Assembly (NCBI GenBank): GCA_944358405.1
Contig: CALVQX010000025.1
Span: forward strand, 1-43,952
DNA length: 43,952 bases
Reading direction: 5' to 3'
Source of the DNA: an uncultured Bacilli bacterium
GTDB lineage: Bacteria; Bacillota_I; Bacilli_A; RF39; UBA660
Shown here: one piece after another, positions 14,223-24,913 of the stretch
How the letters are laid out: the number at the start of each line of letters is the position of its first letter
Numbering within the stretch: position 1 is the first letter of the stretch
The notes under the pieces: generated by a model
Seen by the model: only the letters and a program-made list of their open reading frames with translations
What the model was told of the DNA's origin: nothing
The model's database searches: none
Translations under genes and position numbers: made by a program

Positions 14223-16179
14223 ATCCATTTCCTGCTTTCATCTCAAATAGGATATCACGTAACTCCATTGCACGCTCGAAGTCTAATGCTTTTGCTGCTT
14301 CTTTCATTTCTTGTTCTATTGCCTCAACAGTTTTTGCTAGTTCTTTTTTAGTCATCTTCTTTTGCTTTTTATCTTTTGAGGTTGTATCCGCATTGCTAAT
14401 TACTTCTCTTATTTCTTTTTGTATTGTCTGAGGAACAATATGATGATCTTGATTATATTTTTCTTGAATTTTTCTTCTTCTGGCAGTTTCCTCTATTGCT
14501 TGCTGCATAGAATCTGTTATTTTATCTCCATACATGATGACATGTCCGTTGGCATTTCGAGCACATCTTCCTATTGTTTGAATCAAACTTCTAGAACTAC
14601 GTAAAAATCCTTCTTTATCCGCATCTAGTATTGCAATTAAAGAAACTTCAGGAATATCAATGCCTTCTCTTAATAAGTTAATCCCTACTACTACGTCATA
14701 CTTTCCTATTCTCAAATCATGGATAATTTGTAATCTTTCTAACGTCTTAATTTCTGAATGTAAGTAGGCTACTTTAATATCTAGCTCTTTTAAGTAATTT
14801 GTTAATTCTTCTGACATTCTAATAGTTAGAGTAGTTACCAAAATACGTTCATTTTTTTCTATTCTATCTTTAATTTCCCCTACTAAATCATCGATTTGTC
14901 CTTCTGTTTTCCTTACTTCAATTGTTGGATCTAGTAGACCCGTTGGTCTTATAATTTGTTCTACATATTTACCGTTAGTATATCCTAATTCTATATCTCC
15001 AGGAGTTGCAGAAACAAAAATTGCTTGGTTAATCTTTTTTTCAAATTCTTCGTATTTTAAAGGCCTGTTATCTAGGGCACTTGGTAGACGAAAACCATAT
15101 TCTACTAAATTCATTTTTCTAGCTCGATCTCCGTTATACATTCCACGCACTTGAGGAAGGGTTACATGTGATTCGTCTACTACTAATAGATAATCTTTAG
15201 GAAAGAAATCCATTAACGTAGTAGGAGTTTCTCCTTTTTTTCTCCCGGCCATTGGTGCTGAATAGTTTTCAATTCCAGAACAAAATCCAGTTTCTTGAAG
15301 CATCTCTAGATCATACTTTGTTCTTTGTTCTAGCCGTTCTGCTGCTACTAATTTATTTTCTGCTTTTAATTCTTCTAATCTTTCTTTTAGCTCTTCTTTT
15401 ATTCTAACAATGGCATCCTGTAATTTTTGATCACTTACTACAAAGTGACTGGCAGGAAAAATACTGACATTTTTGACATTATTTGTTACAACACCTGTTA
15501 ATGTATCAATCTCGCAAATTCGATCAATTTCATCATCAAAAAACTCAATTCGATATCCTGTTGTATTTTGATTTGCCGGAATAATTTCTAGAACATCTCC
15601 TCTGACTCTAAATGTTCCACGCTTAAAATCAAAATCATTTCTTTCGTATAACATTTCTACTAACTTAGCTAGCACTTGATTTCTTTCTACTTGTTCTCCT
15701 ACTGTTAGTGTTAACATTTTATTTTTATATTCTTCAACTTCTCCAATTCCATAGATACAAGAAACACTAGCAACTACGATAACATCCCTTCTGGATAACA
15801 AAGCTGACGTCGCCGCATGACGTAATTCATCAATTTCATCATTGATAGAAGAATCTTTTTCAATATAAGTCTCCGTTGAAGGGACATAAGCCTCTGGTTG
15901 ATAATAATCATAATATGATACAAAGTATTCCACACGATTTTCAGGGAATAGTTCACGGAGCTCTGAATATAGTTGCCCTGCTAGGGTTTTATTATGAGCT
16001 AAAACTAACGTAGGTTTATTCACTTCTTTTATCACATTTGCAATCGTAAATGTCTTTCCAGTCCCTGTTGCACCTAGTAAAACTTGCCCTTTTTTACCTT
16101 CTTTAATACCTTCTACTAATTGTTTAATAGCAACTGGTTGATCTCCTGATGGCTTGAATTTTGATTCTAATTTAAACAT
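14212..16179 (-). CDS. uvrB: Excinuclease ABC subunit B
   Basis: UvrB is the helicase-like subunit that verifies damage and recruits UvrC in nucleotide excision repair. Walker [17 protein letters not shown] is near residue 40. The damage-probing beta-hairpin [21 protein letters not shown] is intact, as is the DEAH-like VVDESH motif. The C-terminal UVR domain ([22 protein letters not shown]) binds UvrC. The start at ATG 16179 (655 residues) follows AAAGGTGAT by four bases. It heads a unit with three downstream genes. The leader has three TTCGTG repeats (see 16214-16250). Confidence 0.97.
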
Positions 16180-16213
16180 ATATATCACCTTTTTTAGTTT
16201 TTTTATAAAATTT

Positions 16214-16250
16214 TTCGTGTAATATTCGTGTTATTTTTTTATTGTTCGTG
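16214..16250 (-). promoter_or_regulatory. Three helically phased CACGAA repeats in the uvrB leader
   Basis: CACGAA (minus strand) occurs three times with start spacings of 11 and 20 bases, close to one and two helical turns, 30-70 bases upstream of the uvrB start. A TATAAA -10 candidate lies between the repeats and the ribosome binding site. They are not a canonical Firmicute LexA box (CGAAC-N4-GTTCG), although CGAAC appears once. Confidence 0.3.
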
Positions 16251-16470
16251 CAATCATTCCTTAAAAAAATAGCTTAAGAGCATACCTATACGAATTTACA
16301 CGGCTATAAGTCACAAACTTTAATTTTGAGACTAAAAATTACTAAGTAATACTAAACGTTAATTTCATAAAATATTCTATCATTTTTTTACTTAATTAAC
16401 AATAGAACAGCATTATACTTTATATTTTAAAAAAACTTTTTTGAGCTAATTTAATAAAATTTTCATCAAT

Positions 16471-16505
16471 AAAAAATAGTCAATATCTAATAATATTGGC
16501 TATCT
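16471..16505 (-). terminator. Terminator of the histidine kinase gene
   Basis: ATAGTCAATAT (16476-16486) pairs with ATATTGGCTAT (16493-16503) with one mismatch. On the minus strand it is followed by TTTTT. It lies about 50 bases after the kinase stop. Confidence 0.75.
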
Positions 16506-16554
16506 ATTACTTATTATTTTTTGGTAATTTACTTTGAATAAAAATTATTTTTAG

Positions 16555-18399
16555 TTATATAATATCTTTTTCGTCGTTAAAAATCGTCTTCAAATGTTTT
16601 TCCACTTGTTCTTTTGTGAAGGGTTTTGCTAAATAGTCACTAAATCCTTCTGATAAATACTTCTCTTTTGATCCTTCCATAGCGTCGGCGGTTAAAGCAA
16701 TCACAGGAATATTAAAATCCGGGTTTTCTTTTAGTTTTGTTAATGTAATTTCTCCAGACATTTCAGGCATCATAATATCCATAAAAATTAAATCATACTT
16801 TTTTCCAGAATGGATTTTTTCTAAACATTCTTTTCCACTCCTACATTCATCGATATCAAAATTAAAACTAGATAAAACTTTATTAGCTACCTTTAAATTC
16901 AAATTGTTATCATCGACTATTAGTATAGATTTTTTGCTTGTTTTATCTAAGGTTAGTTCTTCTATCTTTTGTGTATTTTGAGAAATCAATGCAGAAGTAT
17001 TCGTCATTCTATTTATTTTTTGGGGTATGGTAACCATAAATGTAGAGCCTTCGCCGAAGTGACTTTGAACAGTAATTTTTCCATTCATTAATTCTACTAA
17101 TGATTTTGTAATTGCTAATCCTAATCCTGTACCTTCAATCGTTGTATTGCGGTCTTCATCAAGGCGATTAAATTTTGTGAATAGTTTATCAATATTTTCT
17201 GCTTTTATCCCTCTTCCTGTATCTTTTACAGAAATTATAAGATTACAAATATCATTTTTATTTATACATTTTATATTTAACTCTACGCTTCCTTCTTCAG
17301 TATATTTCATTGCATTGGTAAGTAAATTATTTATGATTGTTCTGATTTGTGATTTTGACCCTATCAATTCTTCTGGAATATCTTCTGCCATATTAATCTT
17401 AAATGTAATTGGCTTTTTGTCAATTCTTGGAATGATTAATTTAGTTATTTTATTTATTTCTTCTCTTAAATTATATGGTTTTTCAATAATCTCTACTTTT
17501 TCGCTTTCAATTTTACTAATATCTAAAATATTTCCAACAATTTCTAATAATGTCTGAGAAGCACTTTGAATATCATCAATATCTTCTATCACTTCTTTAG
17601 GAACTTGTTCCTTATAACTTGCAATATCCTCAGAAAAACCAACTATAGCATTCAGTGGAGTTCTAATCTCGTGACTCATACTTGATAAAAATTCACTTTT
17701 TGCATTATTTGCTTTCTCTGCTTGATTTTTGGCTAAATTCAATTGATTTATCATTTTAACATCTGGATTTTCAATCGTATGATACATAATTAGTAAAATA
17801 TAAGAATAAAAAAATCCTTCAAATATTAGTTCGTGATAGGCATCTCTTAAAATAAATCCAACCAGATATAGTAAAATTAAAATTAAAAATGGAGTTATTT
17901 TAGTAATATTATTTTTTTTAAATAATAGATAAATTGTTAATCCCAAGAAAATTAAAAAACTAAATATTGAATAAGCAATAGCTACATTGTAAGATAGGTC
18001 TTCACCATCCAATACATTATCATAATAAATTACATTTAGAGGTAATATTAAAATTAATGCTATAGCGATGCAAGTTGCTAAATTTAGTATTATATTAACT
18101 ACTTTTGCTTTTTGAATATTTACATCAAAAATCAAAAGGCAATATTTTATCGAATAATAATTTAATATTATCAAAACACTCATATATATCTTTTGAAAAA
18201 TTTCTATTAATAAAAAATTAGCAGTTGTTTTTGCTATTATAAAAGCAATTAATCCGATTATGATAAAAATTGTATTTAATATTAGAAGTTTGGAGTATAT
18301 ATTAACCTCGTTATTGTTCATATGTTTTTTGGAATAAAATAATATCATCAACGTAGACGTTATCAATAAGCCAACCGCTGGCAACAATACTGCTCCCAT
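16555..18399 (-). CDS. Membrane hybrid sensor histidine kinase with receiver domain
   Basis: This protein of 614 residues senses a signal at the membrane and autophosphorylates on His. The first ~215 residues contain about seven hydrophobic segments. The H-box SHEIRTPLNAIVGF has the phospho-acceptor His near residue 242. The ATPase domain shows the N-box (NNLLTNAMKYTEEG), DTGRGI and GTGLGLAI. A C-terminal receiver domain begins ILIVDDNNLNLK and carries its Asp in DLIFMDIMMPEMSG, about residue 541. No separate DNA-binding regulator lies nearby, so output may go through a phosphotransfer protein elsewhere. Start at ATG 18399 after AGAGGTGAT. It follows the PlsC-like gene by 26 bases. Confidence 0.93.
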   Translation of the reverse strand: MGAVLLPAVGLLITSTLMILFYSKKHMNNNEVNIYSKLLILNTIFIIIGLIAFIIAKTTANFLLIEIFQKIYMSVLIILNYYSIKYCLLIFDVNIQKAKVVNIILNLATCIAIALILILPLNVIYYDNVLDGEDLSYNVAIAYSIFSFLIFLGLTIYLLFKKNNITKITPFLILILLYLVGFILRDAYHELIFEGFFYSYILLIMYHTIENPDVKMINQLNLAKNQAEKANNAKSEFLSSMSHEIRTPLNAIVGFSEDIASYKEQVPKEVIEDIDDIQSASQTLLEIVGNILDISKIESEKVEIIEKPYNLREEINKITKLIIPRIDKKPITFKINMAEDIPEELIGSKSQIRTIINNLLTNAMKYTEEGSVELNIKCINKNDICNLIISVKDTGRGIKAENIDKLFTKFNRLDEDRNTTIEGTGLGLAITKSLVELMNGKITVQSHFGEGSTFMVTIPQKINRMTNTSALISQNTQKIEELTLDKTSKKSILIVDDNNLNLKVANKVLSSFNFDIDECRSGKECLEKIHSGKKYDLIFMDIMMPEMSGEITLTKLKENPDFNIPVIALTADAMEGSKEKYLSEGFSDYLAKPFTKEQVEKHLKTIFNDEKDII

Positions 18400-19809: not shown

Positions 19810-22626
19810 TTAGAAATATGTATCAGCACATGCACGATTTATTGTTGATGTATTTGAAGTCTTGCCAGCATTTTTTGCTGAAATAGCGACACTATCATTT
19901 TGATAGTAAAGATGGTTGTCATTTTGGCCATTTAAGCAGCTTCTAATATTGGTGCATGATAATGAAACTCTGCCACTGATACAGACATGAGAAGTTTGAT
20001 CATTCCATACACCATAACTTGCTTCTTTTTTATTACCATTAGATACAGTTAACCTAATCATACTATTACCATGCACACGTACACGACTTTGATCATTTGC
20101 ACAAATAATACATCTATCATCAGTTGCTTTACTTATAGAAATCGAACCACCGGTCATATGAAATCTCGCTTTATTTCCTGAAAGAACTACTCCGCTTCCT
20201 CCTAAATCACCAGTTGAAGTAGAACTAATAGTTCCTCCCGTCATATTAAATCTTCCTTGATAAACACTGACTCCTCTGGAATATTTTGATCCGTTAGATC
20301 CTGAACGAAGTGTTCCACCACTCATATTAAACCTTCCATCTTCTCTTACATATACTGCTGAATTATAGTTACGTGCACCATTTTGGGATGTATACAGTGC
20401 CGAATGAACTATAGTGCCCTGGGATAGATTTAAAGTTCCGTCTACTATTATGGTATTCGTTGGTCCAGAATTGGCAGTAGAAGTCGTTTGAATTGTACCA
20501 TTAGAATTAATATTTAAGGTGCTATTTTTCTCGACATAAATACGCCTAGAACTTAACGTAAGTGTATGTCCTTGCAAATTTAATGTAACATTTTTATTTT
20601 TGAGTTCTGGGTTGCTGCCATCAGTCAAATTTGCTGTAAGATATATGGTTCCACTAGATGTATTATTAAATGCATCTTCTAATGTTTTATAGTATCCACC
20701 ATAGTCATTTTTATAATAAGCCTCATACAGTTTTGAAGATGTTGTATTGCAAGTTGCTCTATTTCCAGCATTATCATATACTTCGGTTACCGTTGATTTT
20801 AGCTCGCCAAATTCTGTCAGTTTATCGTCTTGATATGTTGTTTTGACACAACCACTTCTTCCATCACTACATGTTACTTTCCGATTTACTGATTTTGTAC
20901 TACTTCCTGCCGGATAGTAAACAGTATAGGAAGACACATTGCAAGTAGGGTTGGTTTTATCAATTTTTACTGTTTGATTGTCAGGGCAAGTAGTGCAATG
21001 TCCAACATTGTCACAAACCGTTCCTGGAGAAACATTTGTAGAATTTGTTTCCCATGTAATTGTATAAGAAGCATTATCCTTACATCCACTACCGCTATCA
21101 CTACATTTTCCTGTTAATGTTCTACTACCATTTGTCCAGGCATTATTTCCTCCGCTCGATGTACACGTTGGTGCATTTTTATCCACTTTTACTGTTTGAG
21201 TTGCGCATGATGTTGTATTTCCAGCATTATCTTGGATAGTACCTGGACTAATAGCATCATTTGTGGTTTTATTTATTTTTTTACTAACTTCTGTAGTTTT
21301 ACATCCACTACCGCTATCACTACATTTTCCTATGATTGTTACGTCATTGGCCGTCCAATTATTACTACCACCAGAAACATTACAGGTAGGCTTCGTTTTA
21401 TCAATTTTGAATATAGAAGCGTTGGACCAACCACTTGCTGTTCCTGCTTTATTTACAGCTCTAAGGCAATAACTTTTTTTCATATCGTTTTGATAAGATG
21501 TACCGCTAATAATATTTCCAGTCTTCTTTTTGCAGTCTTCTGAGTATTCATAATGGTCGATCCCAGAATAAGAACTAGATGAAAAATTTCCCCACCATAA
21601 AGTTTTATTCGTCCAATTTGTATCAGTCTTTATGTTTCCTGAACTAGAATCATACCGAATTTTTGAAGTTGGTATACTTGGTGTATCTTTATCGATATAT
21701 ACATCCACTTTACATTCCGTAGAATTTCCTGATTTGTCTTTAATCGTTATAGTTCCTTCTTTTGTATTTGTTTTAAATGTTTTAGAGTAACTTTCTCTTT
21801 CACATCCGACTCCATCATCAGAACAAGAAACGGTAATTTTTCTTTCCCCTGTAGTCCATTTTTTACTGCTACCTATAATGTCTTTGCACAATGGTGGAAT
21901 AGTATCTTTTAATTCTTTCGTCTGTGATTTTTTTGAAACATTTCCATAAATATCTGTAGCAACAACAGTAATTTTTATTTTCGATGGAACATATTTTTTC
22001 AAAGATATCGTGACCTTAACTTCTCTTTTTAATTTTGCCGAAACGGTTCCTGTATTCTTCACTTCTACTCCATCTTTATAAACGATATAACTATAACTAA
22101 TAATTTTGTCCGGATCGGTCATTGTTACTTCTGCTTTTGCTACATTAACGTCATTATTAAAGTCTATTTCTATTTCTGGACCATTTGCATAAGTTTCTTT
22201 TTTGCTTGTATAATTTGGACAAACTAAGTAGGTCATGTAACTATAATCGTTTTCTGAGTATTTGAAAATTCTGACATAGCTTTCATCCAAGTCACATGCT
22301 TTTTTACCATAATCTACCACTTCGCTAGTCAAATATTTTTTATCCTTTAATCTTTTCAAAGGAATCTTGGTACTCCTACCGATCACTTTTGGTAATGCAT
22401 TTCTATTATCTTGAACATAACTTTGCCCAACTAATACTATATTTTTATTTAAAGAACTATAGTAATCCTTTTCCAACTTATCTAACCATCTAGTAGCGGC
22501 AAGAATAGCGATAGACATTAACATTCCTAAAATCGCTATTGCCACTATTAATTCTACTAAACTAAACCCATTTCTTTTTTTACCAAACAGCATAACACTC
22601 TCGAATGTCAATATACTTTTTGACAT
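19810..22626 (-). CDS. Giant prepilin-like surface protein with Ig-like and beta-helix regions
   Basis: The 938-residue protein starts with a type IV prepilin signal: a basic leader ending KKRNG, then FSLVELIVAIAILGML (about residues 21-36), the expected prepilin-peptidase site with Glu at +5. About residues 150-245 resemble an Ig-like/bacterial cadherin-like domain. Residues about 250-640 hold repeated cysteine-bearing modules, with CSDSGSGC twice and DKTxPTC or DKNAPTC linkers, probably disulfide-linked. From about 640 to the end, recurring NMSGGT/NMTGGT turns suggest a right-handed beta-helix. Ordinary pseudopilins are 100-250 residues. The start has GAGGAG eight bases upstream. No pilus assembly genes are in the window. 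Role unknown, probably adhesive (inference). Confidence 0.85.
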   Translation of the reverse strand: MSKSILTFESVMLFGKKRNGFSLVELIVAIAILGMLMSIAILAATRWLDKLEKDYYSSLNKNIVLVGQSYVQDNRNALPKVIGRSTKIPLKRLKDKKYLTSEVVDYGKKACDLDESYVRIFKYSENDYSYMTYLVCPNYTSKKETYANGPEIEIDFNNDVNVAKAEVTMTDPDKIISYSYIVYKDGVEVKNTGTVSAKLKREVKVTISLKKYVPSKIKITVVATDIYGNVSKKSQTKELKDTIPPLCKDIIGSSKKWTTGERKITVSCSDDGVGCERESYSKTFKTNTKEGTITIKDKSGNSTECKVDVYIDKDTPSIPTSKIRYDSSSGNIKTDTNWTNKTLWWGNFSSSSYSGIDHYEYSEDCKKKTGNIISGTSYQNDMKKSYCLRAVNKAGTASGWSNASIFKIDKTKPTCNVSGGSNNWTANDVTIIGKCSDSGSGCKTTEVSKKINKTTNDAISPGTIQDNAGNTTSCATQTVKVDKNAPTCTSSGGNNAWTNGSRTLTGKCSDSGSGCKDNASYTITWETNSTNVSPGTVCDNVGHCTTCPDNQTVKIDKTNPTCNVSSYTVYYPAGSSTKSVNRKVTCSDGRSGCVKTTYQDDKLTEFGELKSTVTEVYDNAGNRATCNTTSSKLYEAYYKNDYGGYYKTLEDAFNNTSSGTIYLTANLTDGSNPELKNKNVTLNLQGHTLTLSSRRIYVEKNSTLNINSNGTIQTTSTANSGPTNTIIVDGTLNLSQGTIVHSALYTSQNGARNYNSAVYVREDGRFNMSGGTLRSGSNGSKYSRGVSVYQGRFNMTGGTISSTSTGDLGGSGVVLSGNKARFHMTGGSISISKATDDRCIICANDQSRVRVHGNSMIRLTVSNGNKKEASYGVWNDQTSHVCISGRVSLSCTNIRSCLNGQNDNHLYYQNDSVAISAKNAGKTSNTSTINRACADTYF
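21080..21331. repeat. 33-base direct repeat inside the prepilin-like gene
   Basis: The sequence at 21080-21112 is repeated exactly at 21299-21331, 219 bases (73 codons) apart. It encodes the GKCSDSGSGCK motif. Identity at the DNA level in the middle of more diverged modules suggests recent duplication or recombination between modules. Confidence 0.85.
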
Positions 22627-23026
22627 TTTCTTTCTCCTCTCAAATTATATTTCTACTACACAACTACGTAAGCTCTTATCTTAGAATAAGATTAACATTT
22701 CTTTTGTCAGAATGCAAGGAAAAATTTTTTTACTATACAAATTATTATTGTTTCATTTTTGATTGATAACTTTATATACTTATCTTACATTCTTCGTGAT
22801 AAAACAATTATTATATATTTTGAAAAGATTGTTTTTTAATTATGTTCTTAGATTTTACTTTATAAATTATTAAATCACTCATAAAACAATTAAAAGATAT
22901 TTCCTATTTGATTTTCGTATATTTCTTACTACTAGCATACATTGGAAATTTTTTGTTTTAGTTTGACATATTGTTTTTGGTCTTTTTTTAGCAATCTATG
23001 TTAGAATATTAATAAACGGTGATAAT
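22627..23026. other. Divergent promoter region between prepilin-like and phosphoesterase genes
   Basis: This 400-base gap separates two divergently transcribed genes. On the minus side TATAAT lies at about 22643-22648, and a CTTATCTTAGAATAAG palindrome is near 22678-22692. On the plus side TATGTTAGAAT (22998-23008) looks like an extended -10. No gene is visible in the middle. Confidence 0.5.
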
Positions 23027-23932: not shown

Positions 23933-24913
23933 TTATTTTATTCTCAATATTTGCCATACTCTAGCATTCATCAAACTAGATATTTCTACCGGTCCTAAAG
24001 TTGTAAATTTGAAGTTGTCATTCGGTCCACTGCCATTACTTCCACTTTGTCTTCCTGCATCATACCATTTTCCATTTCCTGCATATACATTTGTATGTTG
24101 CTGATTATACCATAAAACAACATCTCCTGCTTGTAGGTCTCCACTGCTAATTAAACTAGATGCTGTTTTATTTTCCCCATCTATATAATACATTTTTTCT
24201 TGCATTTTTTCTTTTGCATCGTTTCTGTAACTGATAAAATTATTGCTGTTTCTATAGGCTTTATAGAAACGATCTCCACTATCTAAAACTCCTACATCGA
24301 TTAATCCCCATACAATATATAATGCACAGTTTGTAGACTTTGTAGAGGAATCTGCTTGCGAAAATGTATTTCTAGTATTGCTATTACTATAAGTCCATTT
24401 ATTTCCGTTATTTTTATCTTGTATTACTTTGTGAGACATCGTGCTTAAAGAGTTTAAAAAAGCCTCTACTGTTGCAGTACCACCAATAGTTTCATTAGAA
24501 CCATCTTCAGTATCCCCAGCCGATCCTTCATCATAATCATCAGGATTCGTTAAAAAATCCTTTTTTTGATCTTCGTTTTGCTCAATATAATTTGAATGTT
24601 CTAGTGCTACATTTTCTAGATTATTCCAACAATTTGCTAAAGAAAAATTATCATTTACTAAAAGCATGGTCAGGTTTATAATCACAGGAAGAATAAATAA
24701 GATAACAGCAGCAATTAAGCAATTCTTAATTTTAGCTTTTATTTTTTTATCTTCTGGATTCATCATGGCTTTGGTAAAATGTAAAACGAGACTTATAATT
24801 AATAATATTGGAGCTATTATCTGCATTATGGTAAGTGCAGATTTACAAATTCTTAATATATTAATTATTCCAGGATCAGAACATGTTTCTGAAATATCTA
24901 ATAAGTAAATTAT
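23933..24913 (-). CDS. TrbC/VirB2-like membrane N-terminus fused to CHAP/NlpC-type amidase
   Basis: The N-terminal part has two hydrophobic segments preceded by CSDPGIINILRI, a pattern typical of TrbC/VirB2-like pilin domains. An acidic Ser/Gly-rich linker follows. Next comes a cysteine peptidase/amidase domain with TNCALYIVWGLIDVG (nucleophile Cys), LQAGDVVLWY, and QHTNVYAGNGKWYDAG (catalytic His), as in CHAP or NlpC/P60 wall hydrolases. The first ATG (24826) cuts off CSDPGII and has no ribosome binding site. An AAAGGAGATGA site at 24920-24930 points instead to ATA 24913 or ATT 24910, giving about 326 residues, unless one T of TTTT was gained. No other conjugation gene is present. Confidence 0.75.
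   Translation of the reverse strand: MIYLLDISETCSDPGIINILRICKSALTIMQIIAPILLIISLVLHFTKAMMNPEDKKIKAKIKNCLIAAVILFILPVIINLTMLLVNDNFSLANCWNNLENVALEHSNYIEQNEDQKKDFLTNPDDYDEGSAGDTEDGSNETIGGTATVEAFLNSLSTMSHKVIQDKNNGNKWTYSNSNTRNTFSQADSSTKSTNCALYIVWGLIDVGVLDSGDRFYKAYRNSNNFISYRNDAKEKMQEKMYYIDGENKTASSLISSGDLQAGDVVLWYNQQHTNVYAGNGKWYDAGRQSGSNGSGPNDNFKFTTLGPVEISSLMNARVWQILRIK

Follow-up and report, generated by a model that had tools for sequence, protein, structure and literature searches.

A giant prepilin-like protein with a cysteine-braced Ig-like stalk and a predicted C-terminal β-helix: a probable modular type IV pilin in an uncultured Bacilli bacterium

We describe a 938-residue prepilin-like protein encoded in a 43,952-nucleotide stretch of DNA (the window) from an uncultured Bacilli bacterium, and propose that it is likely to be a modular type IV pilin, that is, a pilin carrier bearing an adhesive module, probably at the tip of a filament. 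In hand for this reading are the prepilin motif, a pilin helix and head seen in a structural model, the chain of modules that follows them, pilus machinery in the same genome, an expansion of such proteins in the family, and a pattern among paralogues in which the head is kept and the modules are changed; from these we infer cleavage, polymerization, the tip position, a wall-spanning stalk, and a ligand. Modular pilins are already known as a kind (PMC8179133). What is new is the size and composition of this one, a Cys-braced Ig-like stalk with a C-terminal β-helix, and, above all, the family-wide occurrence of giant prepilins in genomes of about 1 Mb, for which a search of the open-access literature found no account in this lineage.

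The open reading frame is real and complete; its length and extent are those given in the preliminary description, with the correction that the gene lies on the minus strand, running from 22626 to 19810 (Table 1). The N-terminus reads MSKSILTFESVMLFGKKRNG/FSLVELIVAIAILG, where the slash marks the predicted cleavage site, and the motif G/FSLVE occupies residues 20-25. This signal had been called clean, and the profile searches agreed: the scores exceeded the cut-off both for Pfam N_methyl (32.7 bits, cut-off 21.2; E 4.9e-8) and for NCBIfam TIGR02532 (28.3 bits, cut-off 16.3; E 1e-6), and the segment has the Gly ending the leader, Phe at +1, Glu at +5, and about 20 hydrophobic residues expected of a class III signal. 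Judged from its sequence, the signal is no chance match. The start codon is slightly uncertain because translation could also begin at a further in-frame ATG (22593), in which case the leader would have 9 residues, nearer to the 5-10 residues of relatives, whose leader lengths were taken by a nearest-ATG rule. The downstream neighbor encodes a PlsC-type acyltransferase and the upstream, divergent neighbor a metallophosphoesterase; among the neighbors read in the window there were no adjoining pilus genes. Nor were there Tad genes or partner minor pilins beside the gene, as would be expected of a KilN/TadG-type tip protein; the Tad-like locus of this genome is on contig C13. Also near the gene in the window (23933-24826, minus strand) is a 297-aa protein with a weak ICE/conjugation transmembrane match and a weakly NlpC/P60-like end.

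Table 1. Features of the giant prepilin-like gene and its product (window coordinates)
Feature	Position	Strand	Basis
Giant prepilin-like gene, 938 codons + stop	19810..22626	-	N_methyl E 4.9e-8
Ribosome-binding site GAGGAG, 7 nt 5' of ATG 22626	22634..22639	-	Read from sequence
Predicted leader peptide, residues 1-20, ending ...KKRNG (9 residues with in-frame ATG 22593)	22567..22626	-	
Predicted mature N-terminus FSLVE... and long pilin α1 helix, residues 21-73	22408..22566	-	AlphaFold2; PDB profile matches PilE1, geopilin
Pilin head, residues 74-145, Cys pair 111/136	22192..22407	-	pLDDT mostly 75-89; free-standing 129-164 aa homologues in relatives
First Ig-like domain, residues 150-243, no Cys	21898..22179	-	Strand pattern, low-confidence part of model; paralogue alignment
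Ig-like unit 1, residues 244-315, four Cys	21682..21897	-	Unit alignment
Ig-like unit 2, residues 316-412, WTNKTLWWGNF type, two Cys	21391..21681	-	Alignments and model
Ig-like unit 3, residues 413-485, four Cys (PTC..CSDSGSGC..C)	21172..21390	-	Unit alignment, AlphaFold2
Ig-like unit 4, residues 486-559, four signature Cys + two extra	20950..21171	-	Unit alignment, AlphaFold2
Ig-like unit 5, residues 560-633, four Cys	20728..20949	-	Unit alignment
Predicted right-handed β-helix, residues 634-888, rungs LNIN, NLSQGT, NMSGGT, NMTGGT, HMTGGS	19963..20727	-	AlphaFold2 pTM 0.77; Foldseek
C-terminal tail, residues 889-938, three Cys, fold not predicted	19813..19962	-	pLDDT below 50
Terminator-like hairpin, 65 nt past stop codon	19728..19745	-	Barely above shuffled expectation

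When the full-length protein was modeled with AlphaFold2, a single 51-residue α1 helix (residues 23-73) was followed by a small β head extending to about residue 145, the helix-plus-head shape of a prepilin, predicted at a pLDDT of mostly 67-89. The run used a repeat-rich alignment of 14 sequences, and its overall pTM was low (0.34) because the C-terminus was left out of the confident part of the model. A family profile searched against the PDB matched major pilins, Streptococcus sanguinis PilE1 among them, along the N-terminal helix, and the head matched stand-alone small pilins of relatives, including a frame of 139 aa in which one stop codon was read through (E 4.5e-20) and one of 129 aa (E 1.3e-12).

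After the first Ig-like domain come five Cys-bearing Ig-like units of 70-97 residues, each closing with the motif D-K-x-x-P or a variant; four of the five carry the signature P-x-C..C-S-D-x-x-S/V-G-C..C, which recurs in paralogues and in other genera. Despite a total of 28 Cys in the protein, no DsbA was found when it was sought as a source of disulfide formation. AlphaFold2 gave a pLDDT of mostly 80-94 across residues ~360-560, and a Foldseek search with the model retrieved fragments of the adhesin GhpA that contain Ig repeats (lowest E 1.8e-7). By sequence, the stalk had no match in the PDB, and the Pfam Ig-like matches fell under cut-off (Big_3_2, E 0.0026; HYR, E 0.011). Together, the confident model, the fold match, the Cys content, and the four-Cys signature bear out the Ig-like domain and cysteine repeats first noticed in the sequence.

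Residues 634-938, folded separately with AlphaFold2, gave a pTM of 0.77, with regular strands up to about residue 888. The best Foldseek matches to this model were nearly all right-handed β-solenoids, none of them individually significant (best E 0.03), and the weak matches included the Gram-positive adhesins PfbA and Lactobacillus reuteri SRRP (E 0.15-0.2). These results support the β-helix that had been proposed from the NMSGGT repeat. Like the Ig-like units, it is a module grafted onto a pilin and has Pfam matches below cut-off. When its origin was sought in 193 genomes of the family and 296 of the class, only a surface protein that is not a prepilin (L077) and a weak match (L107) emerged. 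As far as these sequences tell, the β-helix is thus almost private to the genome of the giant prepilin, and because it is nearly absent elsewhere in the family, the role we assign to it rests on a single protein.

We searched the host genome (1.32 Mb, 72 contigs, 90% complete) for pilus machinery, family by family. PilB was found on contig C20 (E 7e-120), and PilC (T2SSF, E 7e-47) adjoins a prepilin peptidase, PilD, on contig C19; the peptidase has both A24_N and A24 domains, i.e., methylase and peptidase. Two small minor pilins, with sites G/FVLVE and G/MTAVE, are divergent from pilB, an order of minor pilins and pilB that recurs in five relatives (G013, G045, G063, G041, and G004). In the relatives whose pilB surroundings were read, no PilM, PilN, or PilO was noticed next to it. 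With PilB, PilC, PilD, and at least eight prepilins, the genome has the components of a type 4 filament system. The peptidase, PilB, PilC, and further long prepilins that the preliminary description had named as things to look for were all found, supporting its core reading of a surface adhesin that uses the prepilin route; the absence of a peptidase, which it had taken as fatal to that reading, does not apply since a full one is present. Its remark that no pilus genes adjoin the gene was correct locally but is not significant: pilus genes are dispersed in this genome, with the core set located elsewhere. PilT was not found in this 90% complete genome, in which the only ATPases of this kind were PilB and a CpaF-like protein, and retraction is therefore doubtful; a PilT-like ATPase was present in four of ten relatives. 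The CpaF-like ATPase lies in contig C13 at ~30000-49900 (L026, L058), together with Tad-like membrane proteins, apparent conjugation-type proteins, and a sortase. In that Tad-like/sortase locus there is also a 605-aa Ig-like protein that has part of the pilin head and an ordinary transmembrane start.

Seven N_methyl frames were found in the host genome, the giants among them being of 938, 783, and 691 aa. Contig C47 ends in a 327-aa frame with the same Ig units as the 938-residue protein; from its sequence, this is probably the remnant of a truncated fourth giant. Directly upstream of the 691-aa giant, at 11150-13093 of contig C3 (L022:6151-8094, plus strand), is a 647-aa protein that starts MRKRNNRGFAISTILYG..., with a G/F site without Glu at +5, and combines glycine-rich, F5/8 type C, and ricin-type lectin domains. 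This neighbor is possibly a partner protein or else an atypical pilin. Another prepilin is flanked by apparent uvrC and mutL genes in two genomes, as a 137-aa protein on contig C9 of the host genome G000 (L023:6097-6510, plus strand) and as a 377-aa protein on contig C37 of G009 (L072:4476-5609, minus strand), so that the place is shared and the module length differs.

Prepilins were present in 115 of 117 genomes of the same family, with a maximum of 59 in one genome of ~1.2 Mb. Fourteen family genomes held 145 prepilins, of which 59 were frames of at least 300 aa, 31 of at least 500, and seven of at least 900 (frame lengths, here and below, are counted between stop codons and are slightly longer than the proteins); 12 of the 14 carried at least one frame of 500 aa or more, and the longest giants of relatives reached 1374 aa. 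By comparison, none of 26 prepilins from 15 genomes of other families of the class was that long, the longest being 320 aa. The protein had been judged unusual for a low-GC Gram-positive; this holds against the rest of the class and fails within the family, where prepilins of at least 500 aa are common. The modules of 44 giants included Ig-like domains (in 9 of the 44), DUF6273, DUF285, Listeria-Bacteroides repeats, glycine-rich regions, LRR, thrombospondin type 1, fn3, and GLUG. Two paralogues, on C39 and C3, were 79% identical over the first 100 residues and ~25% beyond residue 300, and for L108 and L109 the head was 98% identical, dropping to 23% distally; L112 and L114 were alike along their whole length. 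From these alignments, a kept head with changed modules describes some paralogues within a single genome and is not universal.

Several further loci came to light in relatives. Four genomes of ~1.0-1.4 Mb (G121, G131, G087, and G110) have 38 to 59 prepilin motifs each. In an uncultured Tenericutes MAG, a giant prepilin (L075:2466-4607, plus strand) has, after its Ig-like units, a YSSWSSCSVKCGSGGTKTRTK stretch that resembles a thrombospondin type 1 repeat. On contig C11 of G007 (L068:492-3698, plus strand) are four tandem proteins of 258-277 aa, three with near-identical starts (LLLTVIAIATLLVAVVGATFAYFAS), which are possibly a TasA/camelysin-like set. In G041, giant prepilins at L154:1-2446 (815 aa) and 15295-17574 (759 aa), both on the minus strand and with similar starts, flank pilB and the minor pilins.

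We propose that the giant prepilin is inserted into the membrane, that the prepilin peptidase of the same genome then cleaves off the leader after Gly20, as the motif and the peptidase together suggest, and that the α1 helix would join a type IV filament, short or long, assembled by PilB and PilC. Its place there would most likely be the tip, as in the published model for S. sanguinis PilB, since the grafted part appears too bulky for the shaft. The Cys-braced Ig-like units could form a stiff spacer across the cell wall and the C-terminal β-helix the contact surface, probably for host or microbial glycans or proteins; the remaining giants of the genome would be alternative heads for one machine.

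The main rival, which we consider unlikely although it merits serious attention, is that the protein is cleaved yet forms no filament: the α1 helix would stay in the membrane as an anchor, the Ig stalk by itself, which at five or six Ig-like units and a helix would measure roughly 20-30 nm, would span the wall to show the β-helix, and the prepilin route would be a general anchoring route. The very long stalk, the several giants per genome, which exceed the need of one tip, and the lack of a detected PilT in the host genome are consistent with it. A plain anchor, however, needs no pilin head, and this head aligns with stand-alone small pilins. Nor does it need Glu at +5, yet this residue, like Gly at −1, was found in 48 of 48 giants examined. 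This invariance is in part circular, since the selection of 44 of these giants used a pattern requiring both; the other four missed the pattern, yet have both. An uncleaved adhesin, its N-terminal segment a plain signal anchor whose prepilin look is incidental, is unlikely, and in our estimate very much so: the 605-aa protein of contig C13 offers a precedent, sharing part of the head (37% over 62 aa) behind an ordinary transmembrane start with no G/F site, but the strength of the N_methyl match, the retention of the site in giants of many genera, and a full prepilin peptidase in the genome argue against it. Equally improbable is a DNA-uptake minor pilin of a competence-type pseudopilus, with added domains that bind DNA as proposed for the ComZ β-solenoid (PMC8179133); the minimal PilB/PilC/PilD set does resemble that of Com pili, but the ComZ solenoid sits inside the pilin sheet and not, as here, after a long Ig stalk, and the diversity of modules across the family suits varied ligands more than DNA.

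The modular pilin we propose has well-described counterparts. Raynaud et al. (2021) set out the principle that a pilin can carry a grafted functional module and display it, most likely at the filament tip, and their survey tallied over 1,200 modular pilins, with 264 architectures among them, the extreme being 860 aa (PMC8179133); pilins with grafted adhesive modules are a published class, a second count on which the protein is less unusual than first described. S. sanguinis PilB and PilC share with it a canonical prepilin start, a small pilin module, a large binding graft, a monoderm host, and a minor-pilin role (PMC8179133; PMC9934059). Processed PilB, however, has 454 residues and one vWA module, whereas the giant prepilin, known from sequence and models, has 938 residues, bears a β-helix on a Cys-rich Ig stalk, and gave no vWA or lectin Pfam match. 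The 860-aa pilin of Candidatus Falkowbacteria likewise joins a prepilin start to many copies of a repeat domain (PMC8179133), but the repeat family and the phylum are different and it is shorter than the giant prepilin and several of its relatives. KilN/TadG of Tad pili are also large tip pilins with a variable distal domain and several alternative tips per genome, but there the Tad machinery and tip sets are co-encoded, whereas the giant prepilin is a single gene without adjoining pilins (PMC12075869). ComZ of Thermus is a pilin with a β-solenoid; in it, the solenoid lies within the pilin head, there is no Ig stalk, and the host is diderm (PMC8179133). Of the proteins that resemble single modules, the grappling-hook protein GhpA of Aureispira (PDB 9flw and related entries) also has Ig-like domains in tandem, with a fold similar to that predicted here (E 1.8e-7), but is not a pilin and showed no sequence similarity to the stalk in the PDB search; PfbA and L. 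reuteri SRRP (PDB 3zpp, 5nxk) have a right-handed β-helix as the adhesive part of Gram-positive surface proteins, but are anchored in other ways, and the fold match is not significant.

For the family as a whole, we suggest tentatively, as a possibility that falls short of being probable, that in these reduced-genome Bacilli the type IV pilin route has become a main display path for large surface proteins. One minimal PilB/PilC/PilD machine would serve an enlarged repertoire of giant prepilins whose modules (Ig, LRR, thrombospondin type 1, glycine-rich, and β-helix) can be exchanged, and these would act as interchangeable hooks for host tissue or other cells. Modular pilins studied at the bench are few, S. 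sanguinis PilB and PilC among them, and we know of no cultured model for this family. If the proposal is true, the giant prepilins would be candidate attachment factors for the family, and an uncultured family with genomes of ~1 Mb would provide a natural series for how type IV pili gain new binding functions, one in which the carrier is kept and the cargo changed.
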